Below are positions 9,976 through 28,033 of a DNA stretch of 32,867 nt, piece after piece. Source of the stretch: a virus. Position 1 is the stretch's first letter; each line of letters starts with the position of its first letter. The position numbers and the translations under genes were made by a program. The stretch covers positions 1 to 32,867 of the IMG/VR virus record IMGVR_UViG_3300024231_000035; one strand, 5' to 3'. Below the pieces are notes generated by a model. The model had not been told where the DNA came from. It ran no database searches and worked only from the letters and a program-made list of their open reading frames with translations.

Positions 9976-11508
9976 ATGAAAATAGTTATAGCGGGTGGAG
10001 GAACTGCTGGTTGGTTATCAGCATTATTCCTAGCCAAACAAAATCTACATAGAGATGAACCAGCATACGATATCACTGTAATAGAAAGTGAAGATATTCC
10101 TATAATCGGAGCTGGAGAAGGTTCAACTGGAGTACTACAAAAAGTACTTTTATCAACACTAACACAATTAGAAGGATTTGGAGAGCAAGAGTTTTTCCAA
10201 CATTGTAATACTACATTTAAATTAGGAATTGATTGTATAGATTGGAATGGAGTAGGTGATAGATTCTTTGAATCGTTATCTGGAACACAAACTTCATTAT
10301 GGCCATTGGATAGAGATTTTACCCTTTGTTCAAAATATGGAGTAGCTGCAGAATCTAGTCCTAACAAATATCTTTGGGAAAAAAATCTAACACCATTTTT
10401 AAAAGCCGAAAGTAGTGATAATTACGAAACTGGATATGCGTATCACTTTGATGCACATAAAGTTGGTGAATGGTTCAAAAAGATTGCATTAGAAAATGGA
10501 ATCAAACTTCAAACAGGTACAATAACTAATACAAATCTAAATCCTAAAAATGGTGAATTACAAAAGGTAATTTTAAAAGATGGAACTGAAATAGAATCTG
10601 ATTTTTGGATTGATTGTACTGGATTCAATAGAGTACTAAGTAATGCAGTAGGTGCAGAGTGGGTTTCATACTCAGAATACCTTCCAATTAATTCAGCATT
10701 AGTTTATACACATCAATATGAAGAAAATGAACAAATTCCAAATGTAACAACCGCATGGGCAATGCCAAATGGTTGGATGTGGCAAATACCAACACAAGAA
10801 AGATTAGGATGTGGATATTGTTATTCTGATAAGTTTGTATCTGAGGAACAAGCCCTAAAAGAAATGCAAGAAATAACTGGTAGAAAGATTGAACCACTTA
10901 GAAATATAAAGTTCGATAGTGGTAGGTTGAAAGAAGTTTGGAAAAAGAATGTACTTTCAATAGGATTATCATCTTCCTTCTTAGAACCATTAGAAGCAAC
11001 ATCAATACATTCATCAATTATTCAGTTAGTAGAATTAACACAACATCACTTATCTCCTTATAAAGAAGATATGATGAGAGAATCAAACATCAAAGCAAAT
11101 AACGAACACTTCAATATGATGTTAGATGAATTTAGAGCGTTGATTCAAATTCACTATATCACAAAACGAAATGATACACCATTTTGGAAATATGTACACA
11201 ATGACTTGAAAAGAGACCCATTAGTTGAGAGTATTTTAGAAGTGTGTAAATGGAGAGTTCCAAACGCTAATGATTTTCCACATTACAATGGTTCAGCTGG
11301 TTGGGGTGTGTTTAATTGGATATTGGCAGGTAATGATTTAATTAGTAAAGAGGTATTAGATAAATCCTTACATACTCATAATTTTGAAAAATCATCTGAA
11401 CAAATTTATAAACATATGGTAAAACAGTATACATTTGATAGTAAACAACACTTTCCACATACTGATTTTATCAAATGGACAAAAGATTTTGCAAAAAATC
11501 CAAAATAA
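9976..11508 (+). CDS. Flavin-dependent tryptophan-halogenase-like enzyme
   Basis: This 510-residue protein is the usual size for the tryptophan halogenase family. The N-terminus has the FAD-binding GGGTAGW (7-13), then GAGEGS (45-50). Lys82 in TTFKLGID corresponds to the catalytic Lys of PrnA-type enzymes. The WxWxIP signature is present as WMWQIP (267-272), and FLEPLEATS (335-343) matches the segment that carries the catalytic Glu. The key residues are intact, so an active enzyme is likely, but the substrate is not evident; the family includes free tryptophan, indole and pyrrole halogenases. It needs a flavin reductase, and none is seen in the window. It abuts a tail gene with no gap. I recall similar genes in marine T4-like phages. 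Confidence 0.85.
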   Translation: MKIVIAGGGTAGWLSALFLAKQNLHRDEPAYDITVIESEDIPIIGAGEGSTGVLQKVLLSTLTQLEGFGEQEFFQHCNTTFKLGIDCIDWNGVGDRFFESLSGTQTSLWPLDRDFTLCSKYGVAAESSPNKYLWEKNLTPFLKAESSDNYETGYAYHFDAHKVGEWFKKIALENGIKLQTGTITNTNLNPKNGELQKVILKDGTEIESDFWIDCTGFNRVLSNAVGAEWVSYSEYLPINSALVYTHQYEENEQIPNVTTAWAMPNGWMWQIPTQERLGCGYCYSDKFVSEEQALKEMQEITGRKIEPLRNIKFDSGRLKEVWKKNVLSIGLSSSFLEPLEATSIHSSIIQLVELTQHHLSPYKEDMMRESNIKANNEHFNMMLDEFRALIQIHYITKRNDTPFWKYVHNDLKRDPLVESILEVCKWRVPNANDFPHYNGSAGWGVFNWILAGNDLISKEVLDKSLHTHNFEKSSEQIYKHMVKQYTFDSKQHFPHTDFIKWTKDFAKNPK

Positions 11509-17194: not shown

Positions 17195-17502
17195 CATTTG
17201 ATGAATTGATTAATAACATCACCCAATGGGCTGATGATAAGGGAATACTTGTTTCTGATAATATCCCACAACAAACTATGAAAGTTATGGAAGAGTTGGG
17301 AGAAACGGCAGGAGCAATTTTAAAACATAAAAAAACAGATGAGGTTATCGATGGAATCGGAGATATCCTTGTTACAGTTATAATTTTAAGTAAACAATTA
17401 GGGTTAGACCCAACCGAATGTTTGGAATCAGCATGGAATGAAATCAAAGATAGGAAAGGTAAAACAGTAAACGGCACATTTATTAAAGAAGAAGAACTAT
17501 GA
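17191..17502 (+). CDS. MazG-like nucleoside triphosphate pyrophosphohydrolase
   Basis: This is a 103-residue protein of the all-alpha NTP pyrophosphatase family. It shows the metal-binding EELGE (34-38), then E51..D54...D58 in DEVIDGIGDILV, and a third helix LGLDPTECLESAWNEIKDRKG. This is the pattern of phage MazG-type enzymes, which hydrolyse (d)NTPs to monophosphates or lower ppGpp. It overlaps SET upstream and NrdB downstream by ATGA tetranucleotides, so it is translated within the ribonucleotide reductase operon. This supports a role in nucleotide pool control. Confidence 0.85.
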   Translation: MTFDELINNITQWADDKGILVSDNIPQQTMKVMEELGETAGAILKHKKTDEVIDGIGDILVTVIILSKQLGLDPTECLESAWNEIKDRKGKTVNGTFIKEEEL

Positions 17503-18776
17503 GTAACTTTGTAGATACAACAGCGGAAAACGTAAGATTCGTAATTAAGAGAAATGGTGAAAAAGTTTCATTTGAATTAAGTAAAATGAAAAGTGCAATT
17601 ACCAAAGCTATGGAAAGCATCGATAAGGTAGATGTAGAAATGGTTGAAAAGATTGCAAGAAGTAGTGAAATAACTATTTATAGAAATCCAAATCATATCC
17701 CTCATGTAGATGAGATTCACGATATAGTGGAAAATAAACTGATGGATAGTGGTTTGAATGATGTAGCAAAAGAATACATCATCTATCGTTCAAAAAATAA
17801 ACCAAATATCTTTAAGAAAAGAGTAAATCTTAAACCTTACGAATATCCTCAGTTAGTAGAATACGTTGATGCTATTAGACACTCATATTGGGTTCATACT
17901 GAGTTCAACTTTACATCAGATGTTCAAGACTTCAAAGTTCACTTGAACGAAAAAGAAAGAACTGCAGTACAAAGAGCTATGTTAGCAATCTCACAAATTG
18001 AAATCGCTGTTAAATCATTTTGGGGAGATATCTACAAAAAAATGCCAAAACCTGAGATTGGAGCAGTTGGTGCAACTTTCGCTGAATCGGAAGTTAGACA
18101 TGCTGATGCATATTCCAACCTAATTCAAGTATTAGGATTAAACTCAGAGTTTGAAAATCTTTTACAGGTACCAGGTATCAGAAAAAGAATTAAATATTTA
18201 GATAAAACAATGAATGCTAGTAGGGCAATTGAAAACAAAGATTACTTTGAATCAGTTGTTTTATTTTCTATGTTTATCGAAAATGTATCGTTGTTTTCAC
18301 AATTTTTAGTTATTATGTCTTTCAACAAATATAAGAATGTATTGAAAGGTATGAGTAATGCAGTTGAGGCAACATCAAAAGAAGAAAAGATTCATGCAGA
18401 ATTTGGATTTGATTTAGTAAATACAATCAAACAAGAAAACCCATCTTGGTGGACTGATGAATTAAAAGAAGATTTAGTTGATGCAACTTTAGATGCTTAT
18501 GATGCAGAAGCAGATATTGTTGAGTGGATATTTGAAAAAGGAGATTTAGATTTCCTTACTAAAGAACAAACTTTAGAATTCATTAAACATAGATTCAACG
18601 AATCATTGAACGCTATTGGAATCGATAGTGTATTTAGTGTAGATGAAAAATCATTAGAAACTACTGAGTGGTTTGATGATGAAATTCTAACTACAAAACA
18701 TACCGATTTCTTTAACAAACGAAGTATTAATTATAGTAAAAAGCAAAAGTCAATTACGGAAGATGACTTATTTTAA
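17499..18776 (+). CDS. nrdB: Class I ribonucleotide reductase beta subunit with N-terminal ATP-cone
   Basis: This is a 425-residue protein. Residues about 10-105 form an ATP-cone (VRFVIKRNGEKVSFELSKMK, then HVDEIHDIVENKLMDSG, then IIYRSK), which in most enzymes sits on the alpha subunit. The beta core has the complete metal ligand set: E168, E198, H201, E261, E296, H299. Tyr205 stands at the position of the E. coli radical Tyr. The first ligand is Glu rather than Asp, as described for class Id enzymes. The C-terminus ends in ITEDDLF, resembling the tail that docks on NrdA. ATP-cones on NrdB are documented in Leeuwenhoekiella blandensis (Flavobacteriia), where they give allosteric control through the beta subunit. 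Its start overlaps MazG by ATGA. Confidence 0.93.
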   Translation: MSNFVDTTAENVRFVIKRNGEKVSFELSKMKSAITKAMESIDKVDVEMVEKIARSSEITIYRNPNHIPHVDEIHDIVENKLMDSGLNDVAKEYIIYRSKNKPNIFKKRVNLKPYEYPQLVEYVDAIRHSYWVHTEFNFTSDVQDFKVHLNEKERTAVQRAMLAISQIEIAVKSFWGDIYKKMPKPEIGAVGATFAESEVRHADAYSNLIQVLGLNSEFENLLQVPGIRKRIKYLDKTMNASRAIENKDYFESVVLFSMFIENVSLFSQFLVIMSFNKYKNVLKGMSNAVEATSKEEKIHAEFGFDLVNTIKQENPSWWTDELKEDLVDATLDAYDAEADIVEWIFEKGDLDFLTKEQTLEFIKHRFNESLNAIGIDSVFSVDEKSLETTEWFDDEILTTKHTDFFNKRSINYSKKQKSITEDDLF

Positions 18777-18794
18777 ACAGTTATAGATAAAATT

Positions 18795-20501
18795 ATGAAC
18801 GATAGACAACCCTTTGAGTGGATTAATGAGGAATCCATTACCTTTCTTAGAAGAGGATACCTAAGTGAAGGAGAAGAACCCTTAGAAAGAATTAAAATTA
18901 TTGCAGACCATGCTGAGAAACTATTAGGAATCGATGGATTCGCTGATAAGTTTTATGGATATATGAGTAAAGGATGGTATTCCTTATCATCACCAGTTTG
19001 GGCAAACTTTGGAAAAAAGAGAGGTTTACCTGTAAGTTGTTTTGGTTCAAATGTTGCTGACAATATTGAATCAATTCTTTTTACACAAGCTGAAGTTGGT
19101 GAAATGAGTAAAATGGGAGGTGGTACTTCTGGTTACTTTGGAAACCTAAGAGGTAGAGGAGCACCAATTACTGATAATGGTCATGCACCAGGCGCTGTTC
19201 ACTTTATGAACTTATTCCAAAGTGTTGTTGATAATATTTCACAAGGTTCAACTCGAAGAGGTAGATTCTCACCTTACTTACCAATAGAACATCCAGATAT
19301 TATGGAGTTCTTAGAAATTGGAACTGAAGGAGCTACAATCCAAGACTTAACTCATGCCGTAACTGTAACTGATGAGTTTATGGAATCTATGATTGCTGGT
19401 GATAAAGATAAAAGAGCTGCTTGGGCAAAGGTAATTCAAAGAAGAGGAGAAATAGGATATCCTTATATTATGTTCCACGATACTATGAACAAAAACACTG
19501 TTGATGTTTATAAAGAAAAGGGAGCAAAAATCTATAATTCAAATCTATGTTCAGAAATCGCTCTTCATAACTCAGAAGAAGAATCATTTGTATGTGTACT
19601 TTCTTCAATGAACGTACTACATTATGATGAGTGGAAAGATACTGATGCAGTAGAAACTCTAACTTATTTCTTAGATGCAGTTGTAACTGAATTTTGTACT
19701 AAGATTGAAGCATATAGAGATAATGGTACTATTGAAGGTAAAAGAGCTTTTATGTATATGGAAAAAGCTTACAACTTCGCTAAAAGACAAAGAGCATTAG
19801 GTTTAGGTGTTTTAGGATGGCATTCACTTTTACAATCTAAAGGATTGGCATTCGATACTAAAGATAGTGCAAAATTAAATGTTGAAGTATTCAAACTAAT
19901 CAAAGATAAATCATATAAAGCATCCGAAGAGATGGCACAAAAATATGGTGAACCTGAATACTTAGTTGGATATGGTAGAAGAAACGTTACTCTTAATGCA
20001 GTAGCACCAACAACATCTTCAGCATTTATATTAGGACAAGTTTCACAATCAATTGAACCTATTTGGTCAAATTGTTATGTGAAGGATGTTGCCAAAATGA
20101 AGGTAACAATCAAAAACCCAGTTCTTCAAAAATTATTAGAAGAATTAGGAAAGGATACTAAATCAACTTGGGATAGTATCAAAAAAGCAGATGGTTCAGT
20201 ACAACATTTGGAATTCTTAACCGATGAACAAAAAGATGTATTTAGAACATTTGCAGAAATCAATCAAGCATCTATTATTAACCAAGCAGCAATCAGACAA
20301 GATTTCATTGACCAATCACAATCATTGAATATAATGGTATCACCTGATATGCCAACTAAGGATATTAATAAGTTATTGATTGATGCATGGAAGTTAGGAG
20401 TTAAAACTCTTTACTACCAACATTCGATGAATTCAGCACAAGCGTTTGCTAGAAAGAAACTAAATCTTAACGATTTAGCATGTGTAGCTTGTGAAGGTTA
20501 A
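18795..20501 (+). CDS. nrdA: Class I ribonucleotide reductase alpha subunit, short form without ATP-cone
   Basis: This 568-residue protein is well below the about 760 of E. coli NrdA because the N-terminal ATP-cone is absent; that domain is on NrdB here. The catalytic set is complete: C82 in LPVSCFGSNV, N250-L-C252-S-E254 (the radical Cys motif), C267 in FVCVLSSMN, and the YY pair in KTLYYQHS of the radical transfer path. The C-terminal CVAC (563-566) is the swinging-arm pair reduced by thioredoxin, which is encoded next. It reduces ribonucleoside diphosphates to deoxy forms. The start at 18795 follows the NrdB stop by 18 bases and gives a natural N-terminus. Confidence 0.94.
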   Translation: MNDRQPFEWINEESITFLRRGYLSEGEEPLERIKIIADHAEKLLGIDGFADKFYGYMSKGWYSLSSPVWANFGKKRGLPVSCFGSNVADNIESILFTQAEVGEMSKMGGGTSGYFGNLRGRGAPITDNGHAPGAVHFMNLFQSVVDNISQGSTRRGRFSPYLPIEHPDIMEFLEIGTEGATIQDLTHAVTVTDEFMESMIAGDKDKRAAWAKVIQRRGEIGYPYIMFHDTMNKNTVDVYKEKGAKIYNSNLCSEIALHNSEEESFVCVLSSMNVLHYDEWKDTDAVETLTYFLDAVVTEFCTKIEAYRDNGTIEGKRAFMYMEKAYNFAKRQRALGLGVLGWHSLLQSKGLAFDTKDSAKLNVEVFKLIKDKSYKASEEMAQKYGEPEYLVGYGRRNVTLNAVAPTTSSAFILGQVSQSIEPIWSNCYVKDVAKMKVTIKNPVLQKLLEELGKDTKSTWDSIKKADGSVQHLEFLTDEQKDVFRTFAEINQASIINQAAIRQDFIDQSQSLNIMVSPDMPTKDINKLLIDAWKLGVKTLYYQHSMNSAQAFARKKLNLNDLACVACEG

Positions 20502-20791: not shown

Positions 20792-20995
20792 ATGCCAATA
20801 CTAAGGGGACAGACTCATCCTTCCGCAAAATTAACGGATGAGCAAGTTTTAAATATCAGAAAACTATGGAAAATGGGACACCGAAATGTTCGAGTTATGG
20901 CTCGTAACAATAAGTGTTCTTCAGCCAACATCATTAAGATTGTTAAGAATAAGACTTGGACACATTTGAATGAATTTTGGTCTGGTAGTTTATGA
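20792..20995 (+). CDS. Small helix-turn-helix DNA-binding protein
   Basis: This 67-residue basic protein has GQTHPSAKLTDEQVLNIRKL (about 6-25), then an HTH-like RVMARNNKCSSANIIKIVKN, ending in TWTHL. This is the DNA-binding module usually found at the C-terminus of HNH homing endonucleases, but here no HNH catalytic domain is present. Its stop overlaps the start of the first Mom-like gene (ATGA at 20992-20995), implying coupled translation. It might be a remnant of a homing endonuclease, or a regulator of the adjacent gene. The DNA-binding fold is fairly convincing; the role is inference. Confidence 0.65.
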   Translation: MPILRGQTHPSAKLTDEQVLNIRKLWKMGHRNVRVMARNNKCSSANIIKIVKNKTWTHLNEFWSGSL

Positions 20996-21759
20996 AAGAA
21001 GAAAAAACATATTGTGATACTTCTAAACTTTCTATACGTCTTATCACAAAATCAGTAGCTAAAGATATTATTGTAAACAATCATTATAGTGGATTGTGGA
21101 CAAAGGTATCTTACGCAATTGGTTTGTTTACTTCGGATGTTGAAGAACATCCTTTTTTTGATAACGTAGAAGATAAACTAATTGGAGTAGCTTGTTATGG
21201 AGACCCGATTGGTAGAAGTGCTGGGCAATCTATTTCCCCTTTATTGGAAAGAACTGAAGTTTTAGAACTAACTAGATTATTTGTATTTGATGATTATGGT
21301 TCAAATATAGAGAGTTGGTTTTTAGGTCAAACATTTAATTGGTTAAGAGAGAACGTACCTCATATAAAAGGATTGATATCTTACTCAGACCCTAAAGAAG
21401 GTCATTGTGGTACGATTTACCAAGCAACTAATTGGTTGTATCAGGGTAATAAACTAAGGTTCAATGATAGTTGGGATTTCAAATGGGAAGAAGGTGGTGA
21501 ATGGCACCACGGAAGAACTTCCTATGTAAAATTTGGAACAAATAATCCCAAAGAAATACAAAAAATAACATCATCTACATTTTGGATAAAGAAAAATCCA
21601 AGAAAACATAGATATGTGTACATTTTATCAAAAGGTGGGGAAAGAAGAAAGTTAATGAAGAACATTAAACACCCAATATTCCCTTATCCTAAAGAAAATG
21701 AAGAATTTGTGGAAGAAATTCATAGAATGGACCCAATAAATTTGGAAATTACAAAATAA
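20992..21759 (+). CDS. Mom-like DNA-modification protein (GNAT-type fold), copy 1
   Basis: This is a 255-residue protein. It has the Mom family pattern: NHY (30-32), SYAIGLF, GVACYGDP (65-72), ELTRLFVFDDYGSNIES (92-108), then LISYSD and GHCGTIYQATNWLYQG (137-152), WHHGRT and KHRYVYIL. In phage Mu, Mom modifies adenines in DNA to a carbamoylmethyl derivative, protecting phage DNA from restriction. The core aligns without gaps to a second copy at 21926 over residues 65-152. It is coupled to a small HTH gene by ATGA and lies at the 3' end of the NrdA/NrdB operon. The modification chemistry and target base cannot be read from the sequence. Confidence 0.75.
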   Translation: MKEEKTYCDTSKLSIRLITKSVAKDIIVNNHYSGLWTKVSYAIGLFTSDVEEHPFFDNVEDKLIGVACYGDPIGRSAGQSISPLLERTEVLELTRLFVFDDYGSNIESWFLGQTFNWLRENVPHIKGLISYSDPKEGHCGTIYQATNWLYQGNKLRFNDSWDFKWEEGGEWHHGRTSYVKFGTNNPKEIQKITSSTFWIKKNPRKHRYVYILSKGGERRKLMKNIKHPIFPYPKENEEFVEEIHRMDPINLEITK

Positions 21760-21772
21760 TTTATTATATTAG
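21741..21772 (+). promoter_or_regulatory. Bacteroidota-type promoter before the second Mom-like unit
   Basis: TTTG at 21741-21744 and TATATTAG at 21765-21772 (one mismatch to TATATTTG) have a 20-nt spacer. The -33 element lies inside the last codons of the first Mom-like gene. The transcription start would fall within a few bases of the ATG at 21780, giving an almost leaderless mRNA. Confidence 0.65.
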
Positions 21773-21779
21773 TAAAATT

Positions 21780-21938
21780 ATGACAGAAGAAAGAGAAATA
21801 GAAGAAATTCTAATGGAATCTCACTCATTTGGGTTGAGAAACGAAGTGATGAAAACTGCTTCTGAAATTATGGGTAATAATCCTAAGATAAGAAGAGTAG
21901 ATGCGTATCACCAAGCTTTTAAAGAATGGGTAAAGTAG
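21780..21938 (+). CDS. Small acidic/helical protein overlapping the second Mom-like gene
   Basis: This is a 52-residue ORF. It starts with TEEREIEEILMES, continues HSFGLRNEVMKTASEIMG and ends AYHQAFKEWVK; it looks like two or three helices. Its 3' end overlaps the start of the second Mom-like gene by 13 bases in another frame. It is directly preceded by a good promoter, and short proteins with this pattern seem familiar from T4-like marine phages, so it is likely a real gene. The arrangement resembles com-mom of phage Mu, where a small upstream ORF controls mom translation, although this protein has no Cys and so is not a Com-type zinc finger. Confidence 0.6.
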   Translation: MTEEREIEEILMESHSFGLRNEVMKTASEIMGNNPKIRRVDAYHQAFKEWVK

Positions 21939-22732
21939 ACGGAAAACATTATGTAGATGCAACTAAGGTAAGTGTAGCTCCTATTGCTAAATCTATCGCT
22001 AAAGATATGATTATCAAAAAGCACTATACTCACGCTTGGACTGCTTGTAGATACGCATTGGGTATCTATCACACAATGGATGAAAATGATATATTCGGAA
22101 ATGACCAAGAATTAGTTGGTGTAGCTGTATATGGATTTCCAGTTGGTGCAAAAGCATCCACTTCAGTTTGTGAAGGGTTAACCAAAGATAACATATTAGA
22201 ACTTACTCGTTTATATGTAGATGATGGTTATGGTTCAAATATTGAAAGTTGTGCATTAGGTAAAACCTTTCAATGGTTAAAGGATAATGATAAGAATATT
22301 AAAGTTCTTTTATCTTATGCTAATAATGGACAAGGACATGTTGGTGGAATATACAAAGCAACTAATTGGATTTATCAGGGTTTGAATACTGATATCGCTT
22401 TGATGCCAAATTGGGGTATTTCACTATCTAATGACCCATTTGATTGGATTCACTCAAGAACTGTATTTAATAATTGGGGAAGTGGTAACTTAGAACACCT
22501 TAGAAAAGAAATCGGTAAGCAGGGTTACAAAGAATTTTGGAGAAGAGAAGAACCACCAAAACATAGATACATTCAGATTCTTGCTCAAAATAAAAAAGAG
22601 AAAAAAGATTTAATCAAAAGGTTAAAGCATGAGATAAGACCTTATCCAAAAGATTTAAATGATTATAATACTGAAGTGGTACATCATACAACATATCCAC
22701 CTGAAGAAAGTAATGAAATAAATTTTTGGTAA
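21926..22732 (+). CDS. Mom-like DNA-modification protein (GNAT-type fold), copy 2
   Basis: This 268-residue protein is a paralogue of the gene at 20992. Shared elements in the same order are KHY (32-34), RYALGIY, GVAVYGFP (65-72), ELTRLYVDDGYGSNIES (92-108), LLSYANNGQGHVGGIY (128-143), ATNWIYQG, WIHSRT (174-179) and KHRYIQIL. It keeps the acceptor-like HY, the TRL strand and the GH.G.IY.ATNW segment, so both copies look intact. Differences cluster between residues 155 and 175 and at the C-terminus, which could change target specificity. It overlaps a 52-residue ORF by 13 bases. The promoter of the next gene starts 5 bases after its stop. Confidence 0.75.
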   Translation: MGKVDGKHYVDATKVSVAPIAKSIAKDMIIKKHYTHAWTACRYALGIYHTMDENDIFGNDQELVGVAVYGFPVGAKASTSVCEGLTKDNILELTRLYVDDGYGSNIESCALGKTFQWLKDNDKNIKVLLSYANNGQGHVGGIYKATNWIYQGLNTDIALMPNWGISLSNDPFDWIHSRTVFNNWGSGNLEHLRKEIGKQGYKEFWRREEPPKHRYIQILAQNKKEKKDLIKRLKHEIRPYPKDLNDYNTEVVHHTTYPPEESNEINFW

Positions 22733-22736
22733 AATA

Positions 22737-22768
22737 TTTGGATAATTAAAATATTATTCGTATATTTG
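22737..22768 (+). promoter_or_regulatory. Bacteroidota-type promoter of the DGQHR-HNH / polymerase operon
   Basis: TTTG at 22737-22740 and TATATTTG at 22761-22768 have a 20-nt spacer. It starts 5 bases after the Mom-like stop. The predicted start near 22773 leaves a leader of about 95 nt, unusually long here, that contains two hairpins. Confidence 0.8.
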
Positions 22769-22783
22769 TAAAACAAAAGAGTT

Positions 22784-22850
22784 GATATCACTCTATAACG
22801 ATATCGAAACTGTTAAATATGGGGTAAGGTATCACCTCAATAACGATACC
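22784..22850 (+). repeat. Two tandem, covarying hairpins in the leader of the DGQHR-HNH gene
   Basis: Unit 1 is GATATC (22784-22789), a 10-nt loop ACTCTATAAC and GATATC (22800-22805). Unit 2 is GGTATC (22828-22833), an 11-nt loop ACCTCAATAAC and GATACC (22845-22850). The units are diverged copies, and the second base pair has changed from A-T to G-C on both sides, a compensatory change that supports a stem. They could be RNA hairpins bound by a regulator, or paired DNA operators. Confidence 0.6.
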
Positions 22851-22867
22851 ACTTAAATTATTATATT

Positions 22868-24388
22868 ATGGCATTTAAAAAATCAATTGATGCAAAAGTT
22901 CTAACGGGTGGAACTCTAAACAAACTCAGAGAATTATTTCCCTACATTCATGTAGATAAACACCAACTTCAAAGACTATTATCAGAGTGGGATGACCAAA
23001 CCAAAGCTGAACATATGAGAGCTTGTTTCGAAGGTCATTCTAACATCTATACAATAGTTCTTATTAGTATAGAGGGTTGTTTAAATTATTGTAATGAAAT
23101 TATTTCAGATTATGATAAAGAAGATACTCAATATGCAGCTGTAAAAGAGACTATTGATTACCTATCTGACTTAAAATCTAAAGGTAAAAAATACTTAAAT
23201 ATTGATGGTCAACATAGGGTAAAGACATATGAAGATTTTCTTAAATCTAAGTTTACATTAGATAAGAATGTAATTGATTACATTGAAAGAGATGGAAAAA
23301 CTCCAATTGCTTATGATATGAAGGGTAAGGTGTTTAAAGATATGCCCGAAGAAACTCAAAAAGCAGTATTGGAAACACCATTAACATTGGTTATGATAAA
23401 TAAAGCAACTCTACAAGATATGGTAGATGTAACTATTTATACCAATATTGGTGAACCTTGGAATAATCACGAAAGACGAATTATCGTACCATCTAAATTC
23501 AATAGATTTTTGATGAGTTATATGAATGATAATCCTCTATTGGAGGCAATGTTTAATAATACAAAAAATCTATCTAGTGCATACTCTCTTTTAAAGAAAG
23601 GTGATTCATTGATAATTGCTGAGTGGATTACTTATTACTATAATGTTTTGAAGAACGATATCTATAAGTGGCCAAAAGAATCTCAATTAGATTTACAATC
23701 ATCTGTGGTTGGATTAGATGGACAATCTACTTCAAAATTAAAAAAATCTACAAAAGTAGTATCTAAAGTGGTGGATATGACAAACACAATTTCAAGTGTA
23801 AAATTTGAAAGAACACTTTTAGATAATTTATTCATATTACTTACTATATTGGAAACTTCATCGCATCCATTAAATTCTTTCCAAAAGAAAGTTAAGATTG
23901 GTAATCTAAGTAAATTTATGGATTGGTTTATGAAAATGGAATCCAAATTAAGAGAAGCTGATTATTACATTAAAGATACTGATGGTAATATTGTTGTAGA
24001 ACCAATTACAGGTAAAAAAATGACAAATTCAGAATCATTTAAAAGAAAATGTGGAGCTAAAAAAGTAGATGATATTCAACTTAGAAGTAATCTGATGATT
24101 GAAGAATTCAACAATGATTATGATAACTTATTTGCATCTGGTGTTGTATCTTTAGTTGATACCAAAAATTATACTAAAAAGGATAAGTTAGAAGCTGCTA
24201 TCGAAAATGATTGGATAGATGCTAGTGGTGAGGAGTTTACTTTTGAAGAACTTATGGGGTCTGATTCAATAATTGAAGGAGACCATCAAGAAGCTAGAGA
24301 TGCTGGTAATGATACTTCAAAAGAAAATTTGGTTCTTAGAAACAAAAGAGCAAATATTAGAAAATCAAATAAACAAATAATAAATTAA
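22868..24388 (+). CDS. DGQHR (DUF262/ParB-like) plus C-terminal HNH protein, putative modification-dependent nuclease
   Basis: This is a 506-residue protein. The N-terminal half has HQLQRLLSEWD (32-42), YTIVLISIEG (61-70), NIDGQHRVKTYEDFL (111-125) and, near residue 190, TNIGEPWNNHERR. These match the order of DUF262/DGQHR domains: QR motif, IDGQ(Q/H)R, then N.G...E.R. The last 37 residues form an HNH-like motif: D472-H473, N487-L488 and N496..K499. DUF262 fused to an HNH nuclease is the plan of GmrSD-type restriction enzymes that cut modified DNA; here the nuclease is of the plain HNH type. It is downstream of two Mom-like genes and coupled (TAATG) to a glycosyltransferase gene. The exact role is not known. 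Confidence 0.65.
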   Translation: MAFKKSIDAKVLTGGTLNKLRELFPYIHVDKHQLQRLLSEWDDQTKAEHMRACFEGHSNIYTIVLISIEGCLNYCNEIISDYDKEDTQYAAVKETIDYLSDLKSKGKKYLNIDGQHRVKTYEDFLKSKFTLDKNVIDYIERDGKTPIAYDMKGKVFKDMPEETQKAVLETPLTLVMINKATLQDMVDVTIYTNIGEPWNNHERRIIVPSKFNRFLMSYMNDNPLLEAMFNNTKNLSSAYSLLKKGDSLIIAEWITYYYNVLKNDIYKWPKESQLDLQSSVVGLDGQSTSKLKKSTKVVSKVVDMTNTISSVKFERTLLDNLFILLTILETSSHPLNSFQKKVKIGNLSKFMDWFMKMESKLREADYYIKDTDGNIVVEPITGKKMTNSESFKRKCGAKKVDDIQLRSNLMIEEFNNDYDNLFASGVVSLVDTKNYTKKDKLEAAIENDWIDASGEEFTFEELMGSDSIIEGDHQEARDAGNDTSKENLVLRNKRANIRKSNKQIIN

Positions 24389-25518
24389 TGAGAGTATTAG
24401 TAATACCTAATTATACAAATTTTGGACAAGTAAAGGATATCAATAGGGATTCGTTCCTATTGGTATTCAAATCTTTTTTAGATAACACACAAATTGGTAA
24501 AGAATGGGAGTGGGTTTTACCTTATCCAGGTGGTGGAATGCATAATCATCCTGGTATTATAAACACCTTTGAATACCCGAATGTAACGATGTTACAAATG
24601 GACCCGATAGATTGTTTCCCAGCTAAGATGCGAGTTGATTATCCTCATAAATTTTTTGAGAAAACTATTGAGAAATATGAAGGAGAATTCAATTTAGTAT
24701 GGTCACACCTACCAGAATGGACTAATTTATATAAGATATCAAGAATATATAATAAATTACAACCAATAATTGGGTACTGTCATTGGAGTGAAATACCTGA
24801 AAATGGTGCAAGAACTGAAAACTCATTTTGGACAAACATTAGAGGTATTTTACAAATGGAAGTTTGTGGTGTAAACTCAAATTATCAGAAAAGTGTTATT
24901 CTTAAAAACGCAGCTAAAGATTTCCAACCACATATCGTTGAAAAGTTGGATAAGATTATTCAGCCTTGGTATTTAGGATGTGATTCAGCTACTCCATCAA
25001 ATGGGTATGATGATAAAACAATCGTATTCAATCATAGAGAAGGTGTTTATACTGGTTCTAAGTGGTTTTGGGAAACTATGGATGAGTTATGGAAAGAAAG
25101 ACAAGATTTCAAAGTTTATACTACCTTAAAAGAAATGGGTAAATCATACACTAAATATATTGGAGCAGCTGATAGAAAAGTATATCTAAATCAGTTATCA
25201 AAAGCACATTTTGGTGTAGGTACGTTTCAAGGTTATTCAGCTTGGAGTATGAGTACAACTGATGGATTTTCAGTAGGTGTACCATATTTACTACCAAATG
25301 ATTTTTGTTATCCTGAAATGGTGGGTAATGATTATCCACTTCTTTATAATGGCAAGAAAGAATTTAAGGAAATGGTAATTAAGTTATTAGATGGTGATAT
25401 TAAAAGACCTGATGTAACCCATCTTGCCCAATCTCTTTTATGGGAATCACAAATTGAAAAATATTGGAATGTAGATAAAAACTTTATTAATACTGCTAGA
25501 AAAGAATTTAATGTATAA
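24388..25518 (+). CDS. Glycosyltransferase, GT-B fold (GT4/DUF3524-like)
   Basis: This is a 376-residue protein. The N-terminus MRVLVIPNYTNF is a first Rossmann strand. The C-terminal domain has IVFNHREGVYTGSKWFWE (about 210-227), then YLNQLSKAHFGVGTFQGYS, and a donor-site-like GVPYLLPNDFCYPEMV. The last part resembles the LLPNrlsYPEl segment of queuosine-tRNA mannosyltransferase-like (DUF3524) and GT4 enzymes. The acceptor could be DNA, a protein, or a nucleoside; nothing decides it. It begins on the last base of the DGQHR-HNH gene (TAATG) and overlaps polymerase by 8 bases, so it is expressed early with replication genes, as T4 DNA glucosyltransferases are. There is no signal peptide. Confidence 0.6.
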   Translation: MRVLVIPNYTNFGQVKDINRDSFLLVFKSFLDNTQIGKEWEWVLPYPGGGMHNHPGIINTFEYPNVTMLQMDPIDCFPAKMRVDYPHKFFEKTIEKYEGEFNLVWSHLPEWTNLYKISRIYNKLQPIIGYCHWSEIPENGARTENSFWTNIRGILQMEVCGVNSNYQKSVILKNAAKDFQPHIVEKLDKIIQPWYLGCDSATPSNGYDDKTIVFNHREGVYTGSKWFWETMDELWKERQDFKVYTTLKEMGKSYTKYIGAADRKVYLNQLSKAHFGVGTFQGYSAWSMSTTDGFSVGVPYLLPNDFCYPEMVGNDYPLLYNGKKEFKEMVIKLLDGDIKRPDVTHLAQSLLWESQIEKYWNVDKNFINTARKEFNV

Positions 25519-28033
25519 AAATTGTTATTACCAACGAGAAAAGAATCTCGTTCACATTTGGGATGATAAACAAGGATATAGAGCATTTCCTTATACTCGA
25601 TACGCTTATGAAAAAGCAGTAAATGGCCCATTCACCACTTTATATGGTGATAAAGTAAGTAAGATTTACAAATTCAAAAAGGATGATCCTGATTTATTCG
25701 AAAGTGATGTACCTGAAACTACAAGAGTATTAGTAGATACTTATACTGATTCGGATTTACCATCAGAAGGACACGTTATTCTTACATACGATATTGAGTG
25801 TGAAATGGAGAGTGGTTTACCAAATCCAGAAGAAGCAGAAAATGAATTAACTTCAATAGCATTACATGATTCTGCTACCAATCAATATTGGGTGTTGGTT
25901 ATGGATAAAGATGGTATCTTAGAAGAGAAAACAACGGATAAATGTATTGTACTTCCTTTCAGAACTGAAGAGGATATGTTAATGAAGTATTTGGAGTTAT
26001 ATGAGATGATAAATCCATCTATTGTAACTGGTTGGAATATCGATTACTTTGATACACCAATGTTGTATAATCGTATCAAACGATTATTAGGTAAAAGACA
26101 CGCTAATAGATTATCACCAATCGGTGAGTGTTTTTGGTCACCTTATCGTAAGAGATACTTTATGGCGGGTGTATCTTATTTAGATTATCTCTCACTTTAT
26201 AAAAACTTTACATACTCAGAATTAGATTCATATCGATTAGATTCTATTGCACAAAAAGAGTTAGGTAGAGGTAAGATTGAATATGATGGAAATTTGGATA
26301 TTCTTTTCAAAGAAGATATTGAGAAGTTTATTGAATATAACTTAGTGGATGTTGAGTTAGTAGTTGAGTTTGATAAAAAACTTCAATTCATTGATACTGC
26401 AAGAGGTATTTGTCACGCTGGACATGTTCCTTATGAAGATTTCGTTTATTCATCAAAATACTTAGAAGGTGCACTTTTAACTTATTTGAAAAGAAAAAGT
26501 ATTGTAGCACCTAACAAACCTGCTGATAGAAGAGAACGAATGGAAGCTCTTAAAGAAAATAAGCAAGAGAAGTTTATCGGAGCTTATGTAAAAGCACCAA
26601 TCGTTGGAAAGTATGATTGGATATATGATTTGGATTTAACTTCACTATATCCATCAATTATTATGACAATTAATATTTCACCTGAAACAAAGATGGGTAA
26701 GATTGCTGATTGGAGTGCTGAGGATTTCGTAAAAGATAAGAGAGATAGTTGGGAAATTAATGGTGATAAAATCACACAAGAAAATCTAAAGAAGTTTTTT
26801 GAAAGAAGTAAATTTTCAGTTGCATCAAATGGTGTTTTATATAGAACTGATAAAGTAGGTTGTATTCCTGATATTTTGGATTTATGGTTCTCTCAGAGAG
26901 TTGAGTTCAAAAACAAAATGAAAGAATATGGAAAAAGTGGAGAAAAAGAAAAATACGAATGGTATAAAAAACGTCAGTTGGTTCAGAAAATTTTACTTAA
27001 CTCTTTATATGGTGTGCTTGGCCTTCCTGCCTTTAGGTTCTATGATGTTGATAATGCTACCGCTGTTACCACAACGGGACAGACAGTTATTAAATCAACT
27101 GCGGATATGGCTAACATCAAATATAATAAGGAGCTTAATACTCCTGATGCTGACTCTAATATATACATTGATACTGATTCAGTATTTTTCTCAGCAGCAC
27201 CTCTTTTAGACCATAGGATTCCTAATTGGAAAGATAATGACCAACAAACAATAGCTGGGTTTGTAAATGATATTGCTGGTGAGATGCAAGATTATCTCAA
27301 TGATTTTTATGATATTCTTGCTGAAAAGGTATTCAACGTAGATAAGGATAAACACCGATTTGAGATTAAGAAAGAATATGTTTCAAAAGCCGGTATTTGG
27401 ATTGCTAAGAAACGATATGCACAATGGATTATATCAGATAATGGTGTACCTGTTGATAAGTTAGATGTAAAGGGATTGGATGTTGTACGTTCTTCATATC
27501 CAGCAGCATTTAGAAAGTTTATGAGTGAGGTTCTTATTGAAATTCTTAGAGGTGATACTGAAGAACAACTTACAAATAGAGTTTACGATTTCAAAAATGA
27601 TTTGGTAAATATGGATGTTGTTAAGATTGCTAAAGCAGGGGCTGTAAAAAACTTAAATAAATACATGCCTAAAAAGAAAGACCAAACGGCAATGTTCCAA
27701 TTCATTAGTGGAACACCAGCACACGTAAAAGCATCAATTGCATACAATCAATTGTTAAAACACTTCAAAGTGGAAAATCAATACGAACCTTTGAAGGGTG
27801 GTGATAAAATTAAATGGGTATATTTGAAACAAAATCAATATGGGTTAGATGCAGTAGCTATGAATGGTTACAATGACCCACCTCAGATTATGGAGTTAAT
27901 AAAAACTCATATCAACCACGATAAAATCTTCGAAAGAGAACTTCTAAAGAAATTAGAAGATTTCTACGGAGCATTAGGGTGGGGAGAAGTTCTCTCTTCC
28001 AAAAAGACAGCTGAAAAGTTTTTCTCTTTTTAG
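25511..28033 (+). CDS. Replicative DNA polymerase, family B (gp43-like)
   Basis: This 840-residue protein is close to T4 gp43 (898). Exo I is TYDIECE with D94/E96, Exo II is TGWNIDYFDTP near 172, and Exo III is YNLVDVELV near 275. Motif A is DLTSLYPSII near 373, motif B is KILLNSLYGVLG near 493, and motif C is YIDTDS near 550. So both proofreading and polymerase sites are intact. The C-terminus ends KTAEKFFSF, consistent with a clamp-binding tail. The ATG at 25511 overlaps the glycosyltransferase stop by 8 bases. The sliding-clamp gene is next, under its own promoter. Confidence 0.96.
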   Translation: MYKNCYYQREKNLVHIWDDKQGYRAFPYTRYAYEKAVNGPFTTLYGDKVSKIYKFKKDDPDLFESDVPETTRVLVDTYTDSDLPSEGHVILTYDIECEMESGLPNPEEAENELTSIALHDSATNQYWVLVMDKDGILEEKTTDKCIVLPFRTEEDMLMKYLELYEMINPSIVTGWNIDYFDTPMLYNRIKRLLGKRHANRLSPIGECFWSPYRKRYFMAGVSYLDYLSLYKNFTYSELDSYRLDSIAQKELGRGKIEYDGNLDILFKEDIEKFIEYNLVDVELVVEFDKKLQFIDTARGICHAGHVPYEDFVYSSKYLEGALLTYLKRKSIVAPNKPADRRERMEALKENKQEKFIGAYVKAPIVGKYDWIYDLDLTSLYPSIIMTINISPETKMGKIADWSAEDFVKDKRDSWEINGDKITQENLKKFFERSKFSVASNGVLYRTDKVGCIPDILDLWFSQRVEFKNKMKEYGKSGEKEKYEWYKKRQLVQKILLNSLYGVLGLPAFRFYDVDNATAVTTTGQTVIKSTADMANIKYNKELNTPDADSNIYIDTDSVFFSAAPLLDHRIPNWKDNDQQTIAGFVNDIAGEMQDYLNDFYDILAEKVFNVDKDKHRFEIKKEYVSKAGIWIAKKRYAQWIISDNGVPVDKLDVKGLDVVRSSYPAAFRKFMSEVLIEILRGDTEEQLTNRVYDFKNDLVNMDVVKIAKAGAVKNLNKYMPKKKDQTAMFQFISGTPAHVKASIAYNQLLKHFKVENQYEPLKGGDKIKWVYLKQNQYGLDAVAMNGYNDPPQIMELIKTHINHDKIFERELLKKLEDFYGALGWGEVLSSKKTAEKFFSF

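Follow-up and report, generated by a model that had tools for sequence, protein, structure and literature searches.

What might a phage gain from a nuclease-like gene that lies between its DNA modification genes and differs among otherwise nearly identical genomes? The question is raised by a 32.9-kb IMG/VR fragment (IMGVR_UViG_3300024231_000035) from a T4-like phage, hereafter the window, meaning the whole stretch of DNA that was analysed. Among its replication genes lies an island of six genes, all on the plus strand. Their order, coordinates and overlaps are as given in the initial annotation, which had been made from the sequence alone.

20792..20995, plus strand: small helix-turn-helix (HTH) protein, 67 amino acids (aa), similar to the HTH at the C-terminus of HNH endonucleases from phages (PHROG 20467, E=9e-5)
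20992..21759, plus strand: mom1, Mom-family (GNAT-fold) DNA modification enzyme
21780..21938, plus strand: 52-aa open reading frame between the mom genes
21926..22732, plus strand: mom2, second Mom paralogue
22868..24388, plus strand: slot protein, 506 aa, with a DUF262/GmrSD-like N-terminus, a helical middle and an HNH-like C-terminus (~24275-24370)
23204..23218, plus strand: DGQHR motif of the slot protein, residues 113-117, invariant in near relatives, DGKHR in one far relative
24388..25518, plus strand: glycosyltransferase-like protein (GT), probably GT-B, 376 aa; forms the invariant right-hand border of the slot

The HTH gene overlaps mom1 by 4 nucleotides (nt), the 52-aa frame overlaps mom2 by 13 nt, the DGQHR gene overlaps the GT gene by 1 nt, and the GT gene overlaps the polymerase gene by 8 nt. 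The two mom genes and the GT gene are constant among relatives, the gene between mom2 and the GT gene is exchanged, and in the window that gene is preceded by two tandem pseudoknots with covarying stems. We read the island as a phage-borne module acting like a restriction-modification system and put the probability of this reading at about one half. The slot polymorphism, the leader pseudoknots, a promoter-like sequence before them and an Asp-to-Asn change in Mom2 had been missed in the initial annotation.

The paralogous Mom-like cores recognised earlier are borne out by profile searches. The Pfam Mom profile (PF25680) covers most of each protein and matches both far above its cut-off (7.5e-45 for Mom1 and 3e-45 for Mom2). 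Both also match PHROG 1384, and a search of the PDB with the Mom profile retrieved the structure of phage Mu Mom (8bv8, 1.4e-27). Mom1 contains all five residues that align with H48, Y49, R101, D139 and Y149 of Mu Mom, which we take to be catalytically important in that enzyme. The window differs from Mu in having two Mom paralogues, in belonging to a T4-like phage, in the position of the genes beside replication genes, and in the Asn that replaces the Asp in Mom2. Mom1 and Mom2 are 44% identical. In a tree of 95 Mom sequences, the Mom2 copies form one clade of 51 rows (support 100/100) separate from the first copies, and each of the 18 large contigs, 95-271 kb in length, has two strong copies. 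The pair therefore goes back to an old duplication of which both halves were retained. Third, divergent Mom copies occur at L027:12932-13546, L028:13878-14489, L057:6038-6745 and L018:14543-15241 (L numbers denote related loci), two of them between the polymerase and the clamp.

The order HTH, mom1, mom2, slot, GT and polymerase recurs in dozens of uncultured phage contigs, which were retrieved with the GT, the DGQHR protein or Mom1 as query. The block extends to diverged lineages, in which the ribonucleotide reductase is 32-39%, the polymerase ~50-56%, mom1 ~64-74% and the GT ~71-83% identical. The HTH gene marks its start and is retained ahead of mom1 in nearly all relatives, and the 52-aa frame is found in nearer relatives only. 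The slot itself is highly variable. Among 48 distinct intervals between mom and GT, 27 contained a family labelled SLOT2, 11 the DGQHR family, two a ParB-like protein, one each two further families related to SLOT2, two other genes, and four no gene. One of the gene-less intervals (L055) has a GIY-YIG-like protein on the opposite side of the GT. Among loci collected later, L170 and L186 carried GIY-YIG-like proteins, L190 a ParB-like one, and L189 a canonical GmrSD_N+HNH protein with a DGQQR motif, which scores 35.2 bits with PF03235 (cut-off 33.2).

The exchange is also seen among close relatives. Most genes of L011, L012 and L013 are 88-99% identical to those of the window, and their slot proteins are large and unrelated to the DGQHR protein. 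Loci whose GT proteins are 89-100% identical to one another (L018, L066-L069, L112) differ in their slot, which is empty or filled by SLOT2, a DGQHR protein, a ParB-like protein or an HNH-like protein of 184 aa. When the window is compared with L013, DNA identity is mostly 90-100% on the flanks, drops to 76-96% from mom2 through the polymerase gene (21.9-27.9 kb) and then recovers to 94-100%; this dip around the slot marks an exchanged tract. The slot nuclease is one allele of a polymorphic locus and no fixed part of the island. The co-occurrence that the initial annotation had proposed as a check was found for the Mom pair and the GT across relatives, and none of the refuting outcomes named there that can be computed was observed.

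Such turnover would also be expected if the slot proteins were free-standing homing endonucleases at a favoured site between mom2 and GT, functionally independent of the modification genes, and if homing with co-conversion of the flanks caused the exchange. Empty sites are present in relatives (49 nt between mom2 and GT in L067, 4 nt in L101 and L111), and the divergence from L013 is greatest around the slot, as co-conversion would produce. The GIY-YIG-like proteins of L170 and L186, and of L055 across the GT, resemble SegE and homing endonucleases. Phage homing nucleases may also serve competition (PMC11620839). However, homing genes scatter, whereas the two main slot families are single-copy, confined to the slot and never found together in the 18 large contigs: the DGQHR family is present in 5 and SLOT2 in 12, so that 17 of the 18 carry exactly one of the two, the exception being L013 with a third family. 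The DGQHR family moreover adjoins GT genes at other, unrelated places, and the combination of a DUF262 domain and DGQHR typifies restriction and defence effectors. We regard a homing origin as the main rival, unlikely if well within reason, and give preference to the restriction-modification-like reading.

The DGQHR protein had been described as DUF262-like with a C-terminal HNH, and a profile search had been suggested as a check. In hhalign, the DGQHR family matched five annotated DUF262 plasmid proteins at 98.7% (E=2e-16), with GT and Mom controls below 1%, and five of eight matches in the blind tblastn search that had brought up these plasmid proteins were annotated as DUF262. Of the DUF262 motifs, the protein retains the QR pair and DGQHR; the third, FxxxN, appears as TxxxN in the window and in its regular form in a distant member. 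The C-terminus, EGDHQEARDAGNDTSKENLVLRNKRANIRKSNK, conforms to the D-H-N-N pattern reported for GmrD (PMC4619093). The HNH-like D-H...N...N pattern, read by eye, is retained in complete members and is clearer in far ones (HIEAHSKGG...). The window protein has no Pfam HNH match, and the alignment of its C-terminus with the HNH of the GmrSD_N protein of L189 is weak (32%, E=5e-4). The protein is filed as DUF262-like rather than as GmrSD because formal Pfam membership fails. It resembles the type IV restriction enzymes GmrSD and BrxU in combining DUF262 and HNH, and the slot allele of L189 exceeds the GmrSD_N cut-off. The window protein stays under that cut-off and, unlike these enzymes, is phage-encoded and has modification genes of its own as neighbours.

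The gene is under strong purifying selection, with a dN/dS of 0.05 against L006 and 0.17-0.23 against more distant members. At L008:984-2503 it is broken into two frames, either by sequencing error or by decay. The best argument that the nuclease and glycosylation belong together is the recurring GT neighbour. The DGQHR gene stands beside a GT gene in three arrangements, namely mom2-DGQHR-GT-polymerase, GT-DGQHR-ssb (L147, L153) and PLOD-type GT-DGQHR-GT (L149); in the stretches read of the latter two, no Mom was found. A close-relative scan of the collected bacterial and archaeal genomes found no relative of the DGQHR protein, and PDB sequence profiles gave nothing for the GT, the DGQHR protein or SLOT2.

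Between mom2 and the DGQHR gene lies a gap of 135 nt, which holds a promoter-like sequence followed by two tandem pseudoknots.

22737..22768, plus strand: Bacteroidota-type promoter-like sequence, TTTG - 20 nt - TATATTTG, read from the sequence
22778..22805, plus strand: leader pseudoknot 1, segments AGAGT / T / GATATC / ACTCT / ATAAC / GATATC
22821..22850, plus strand: leader pseudoknot 2, segments GGGGT / AA / GGTATC / ACCTC / AATAAC / GATACC

The promoter-like sequence is named after what we take to be the Bacteroidota promoter consensus, and a recognisable counterpart, judged by eye, precedes most of the slot alleles inspected. Both leader units form H-type pseudoknots with a stem 1 of 5 base pairs, a loop 1 of 1-2 nt (1-3 in relatives), a stem 2 of 6 base pairs, no loop 2, and an A-rich loop 3 of 5-6 nt. 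One or two such pseudoknots were present in all nine near-DGQHR leaders, none of them matched by any of 60 shuffles. The leaders of other slot families contained nothing comparable, apart from weak candidates in two ParB-like leaders (2/60).

In 11 distinct units, aligned by hand according to structure and thus with a bias in favour of pseudoknots, all 119 base-pair cells are standard, and two-sided changes occur at 8 of the 11 pair positions. The count was made on the hand alignment because MAFFT displaces stem 1 by a column in units with a different loop 1. None of 5000 row permutations reached 119 standard pairs (maximum 106), which gives no strict probability, as the units are related by descent. 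Nonetheless, eight two-sided changes would be hard to obtain without real pairing. With pseudoknots excluded, folding gives the leader another and unremarkable structure (z -1.3), and the case for pseudoknots is therefore one of covariation, not of energy. The arms of stem 2 also form inverted repeats in DNA; the interleaved complementarity suggests RNA structures rather than DNA operators. No Rfam family matches the pseudoknots, and no terminator-like site was found within 22850-22868. The leader is a new candidate RNA regulator. Among T4-like phages, a leader pseudoknot is known from the autogenous operator of T4 gene 32 (PMC535899), which likewise precedes a protein acting on nucleic acids, but the downstream gene of the window is unrelated to gp32. 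The RNA repeats of type III toxin-antitoxin systems (PMC8860590) are also tandem pseudoknot RNAs 5' of an effector. In contrast to those systems, the effector here is DUF262-HNH-like and not of the ToxN, CptN or TenpN type, and RNA and gene are not separated by a terminator-like site.

How these parts may work together is best seen against SspE of the SspABCD-SspE phosphorothioate defence and DndI of DndBCDE-DndI. Both proteins have an N-terminal DUF262 with DGQ[QH]R, a C-terminal HNH and adjacent modifier genes. Their DUF262 domain senses the self mark and hydrolyses nucleoside triphosphate (NTP), and it either licenses the HNH nickase to act against DNA that lacks the mark or sets the nickase free from DNA that carries it (PMC13251355, PMC11662687). 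The island differs in being encoded by a phage, in having Mom and GT and no phosphorothioation enzymes, in its shorter protein, polymorphic slot and pseudoknot leader, and in that its sensing is a prediction. By analogy, Mom1 and Mom2 would modify adenines of the phage DNA, and the GT would probably add a sugar, either to the Mom product or to another base. Progeny DNA would thereby bear a mark, which we infer to be a self signal. The slot protein would sense this mark through its DUF262 (ParB/Srx-type) domain in a reaction coupled to NTP hydrolysis, and would use its HNH domain to nick unmarked DNA, whether of the host chromosome or of competing phages. The marking enzymes would stay constant while the nuclease is swapped by recombination, as expected for an arms race among related phages. 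The tandem pseudoknots may control translation of this nuclease allele, either by holding it back or by autoregulation.

The initial annotation had suggested a nuclease that reads marks in order to attack. The Mom and DUF262-type assignments hold up, but attack on marked DNA is neither the sole nor the likeliest direction, because in the closest mechanistic parallels of a modifier beside such a nuclease, SspE and DndI, the mark serves to signal self (PMC13251355, PMC11662687). It had also been stated that no described system of this composition was known. In the literature searched, neither the combination of two Moms, a GT and a DUF262-HNH protein, nor the polymorphic effector slot, nor a covarying tandem-pseudoknot leader was found described. 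The idea of a phage Mom tied to a nuclease, however, is older: fusions of Mom with restriction endonucleases in jumbo phages were predicted to act in a restriction-like manner (PMC7824862). The window differs from those in its separate genes, two Moms plus GT, and exchangeable DUF262-HNH nuclease.

Mom is a known anti-restriction enzyme, and a second alternative holds that Mom1, Mom2 and the GT do nothing more than shield the phage from host restriction. The slot protein would then be a DndB-like regulator or a recombination nuclease engaged in regulation or repair. The block persists even where the slot is empty, and DGQHR is also a signature of DndB (PMC4619093). Yet the DndB profile gave no match, the protein retains an HNH-like C-terminus under purifying selection, and full exchange of a protein among close relatives would be unusual for a regulator, so this explanation appears improbable. 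About as improbable is the GmrSD-like reading of the initial annotation, an enzyme that cuts the modified DNA of rival phages and exempts its own Mom/GT mark. In its favour, a GT is adjacent, and phage DNA with glucose or other modifications is cut by the DUF262-HNH enzymes GmrSD and BrxU (PMC4619093, PMC13390438). A cutter of modified DNA beside its own modifiers would, however, require that extra exemption, and the mark is the self signal in known pairs of modifier and DUF262 protein (PMC13251355, PMC11662687).

Several observations weigh against the restriction-modification-like reading. The window protein matches neither Pfam GmrSD_N (PF03235) nor DndB (PF14072) even at E<=1. AlphaFold models were of low confidence (predicted local distance difference test, pLDDT, 52 and 66) and their fold matches were not significant; the top ones, ParB and SspE for the DGQHR protein and DndI and Spo0J for SLOT2, are in line with the proposal. 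SLOT2, the commonest slot family, is not shown by present evidence to be either a nuclease or ParB-like, and several of its members have Q instead of H in the HNH-like motif. Homology between SLOT2 and the DGQHR family, considered because of the look-alike motifs DRGH and N..W..H, reached just 0.1-0.2% in hhalign and is not claimed. The nuclease is dispensable, since at least three lineages carry mom2 and GT without a slot protein. Finally, in the Mom2 of the window Asn stands at the position of Mu D139, and the same holds throughout a nine-sequence Mom2 clade to which this change is confined, with Asp kept in the other 86 Mom sequences compared.

A more elaborate version of the restriction-modification-like reading can be put forward only tentatively. 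The phage would discriminate self from non-self in conflicts between phages by means of constant markers (two Moms and GT) and a polymorphic effector locus of unrelated mark-sensing nucleases. Each allele would come with a separate leader, which in the window would be an RNA switch of tandem pseudoknots that holds the nuclease back until the phage DNA is marked. Phages are known to mark their DNA against restriction. If the proposal is true, lytic phages run a restriction-modification-like immunity of their own against rivals. As the slot provides a natural allele series in nearly identical genomes, both phage competition and the evolution of DUF262 effectors become testable.

The GT has 189 related stretches in IMG/VR. 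The window protein itself has no relevant match in Pfam or PHROG. A homologue in L149 (39% identical) matches Glycos_transf_1 at 2.7e-4, under the curated cut-off, and two plasmid matches are annotated as glycosyltransferase family 1, so the earlier GT-B assignment is supported only indirectly. In relatives, the GT or the nuclease is often directly preceded by a second GT, of the PLOD GT family (PF25342; L013:9312-10001, L023:9273-10001, L045:1012-1728, L149:494-1303, L099:7311-8000), with matches up to 2.9e-29 in the three tested. A PADLOC match to NsnA at 1.1e-8 is left without interpretation, NsnA being named in none of the papers listed. Among 50,697 deposited phage records, no detectable relative of the GT, the DGQHR protein or the tested ParB-like slot protein was found. 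In Microcystis phage Mel-JY01, whose polymerase is 51% identical, the 20 kb read contain neither Mom nor GT nor slot protein; two other short genes lie there between thioredoxin and polymerase.

The gene order of the window is SSB, UvsX, gp47-like exonuclease, DnaB-like helicase, ribonucleotide reductase, thioredoxin, the island, family-B polymerase, clamp and clamp loaders. The polymerase follows directly after the GT.

25511-28033: T4-like DNA polymerase, family B

The source is a large uncultured phage, probably with a Bacteroidota host, as indicated by the Bacteroidota-type promoter-like sequence and by the best Mom match, which comes from Polaribacter phage P12002L. In many relatives, the ribonucleotide reductase adjoining the island (17499-20501 in the window) is only 32-39% identical; in L007, L021 and L034 it is diverged while some neighbouring genes are 80-95% identical, which is read as wholesale replacement. 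A tryptophan halogenase-like gene is located at 9976-11508 of the window (PHROG 2928, 9.9e-107).

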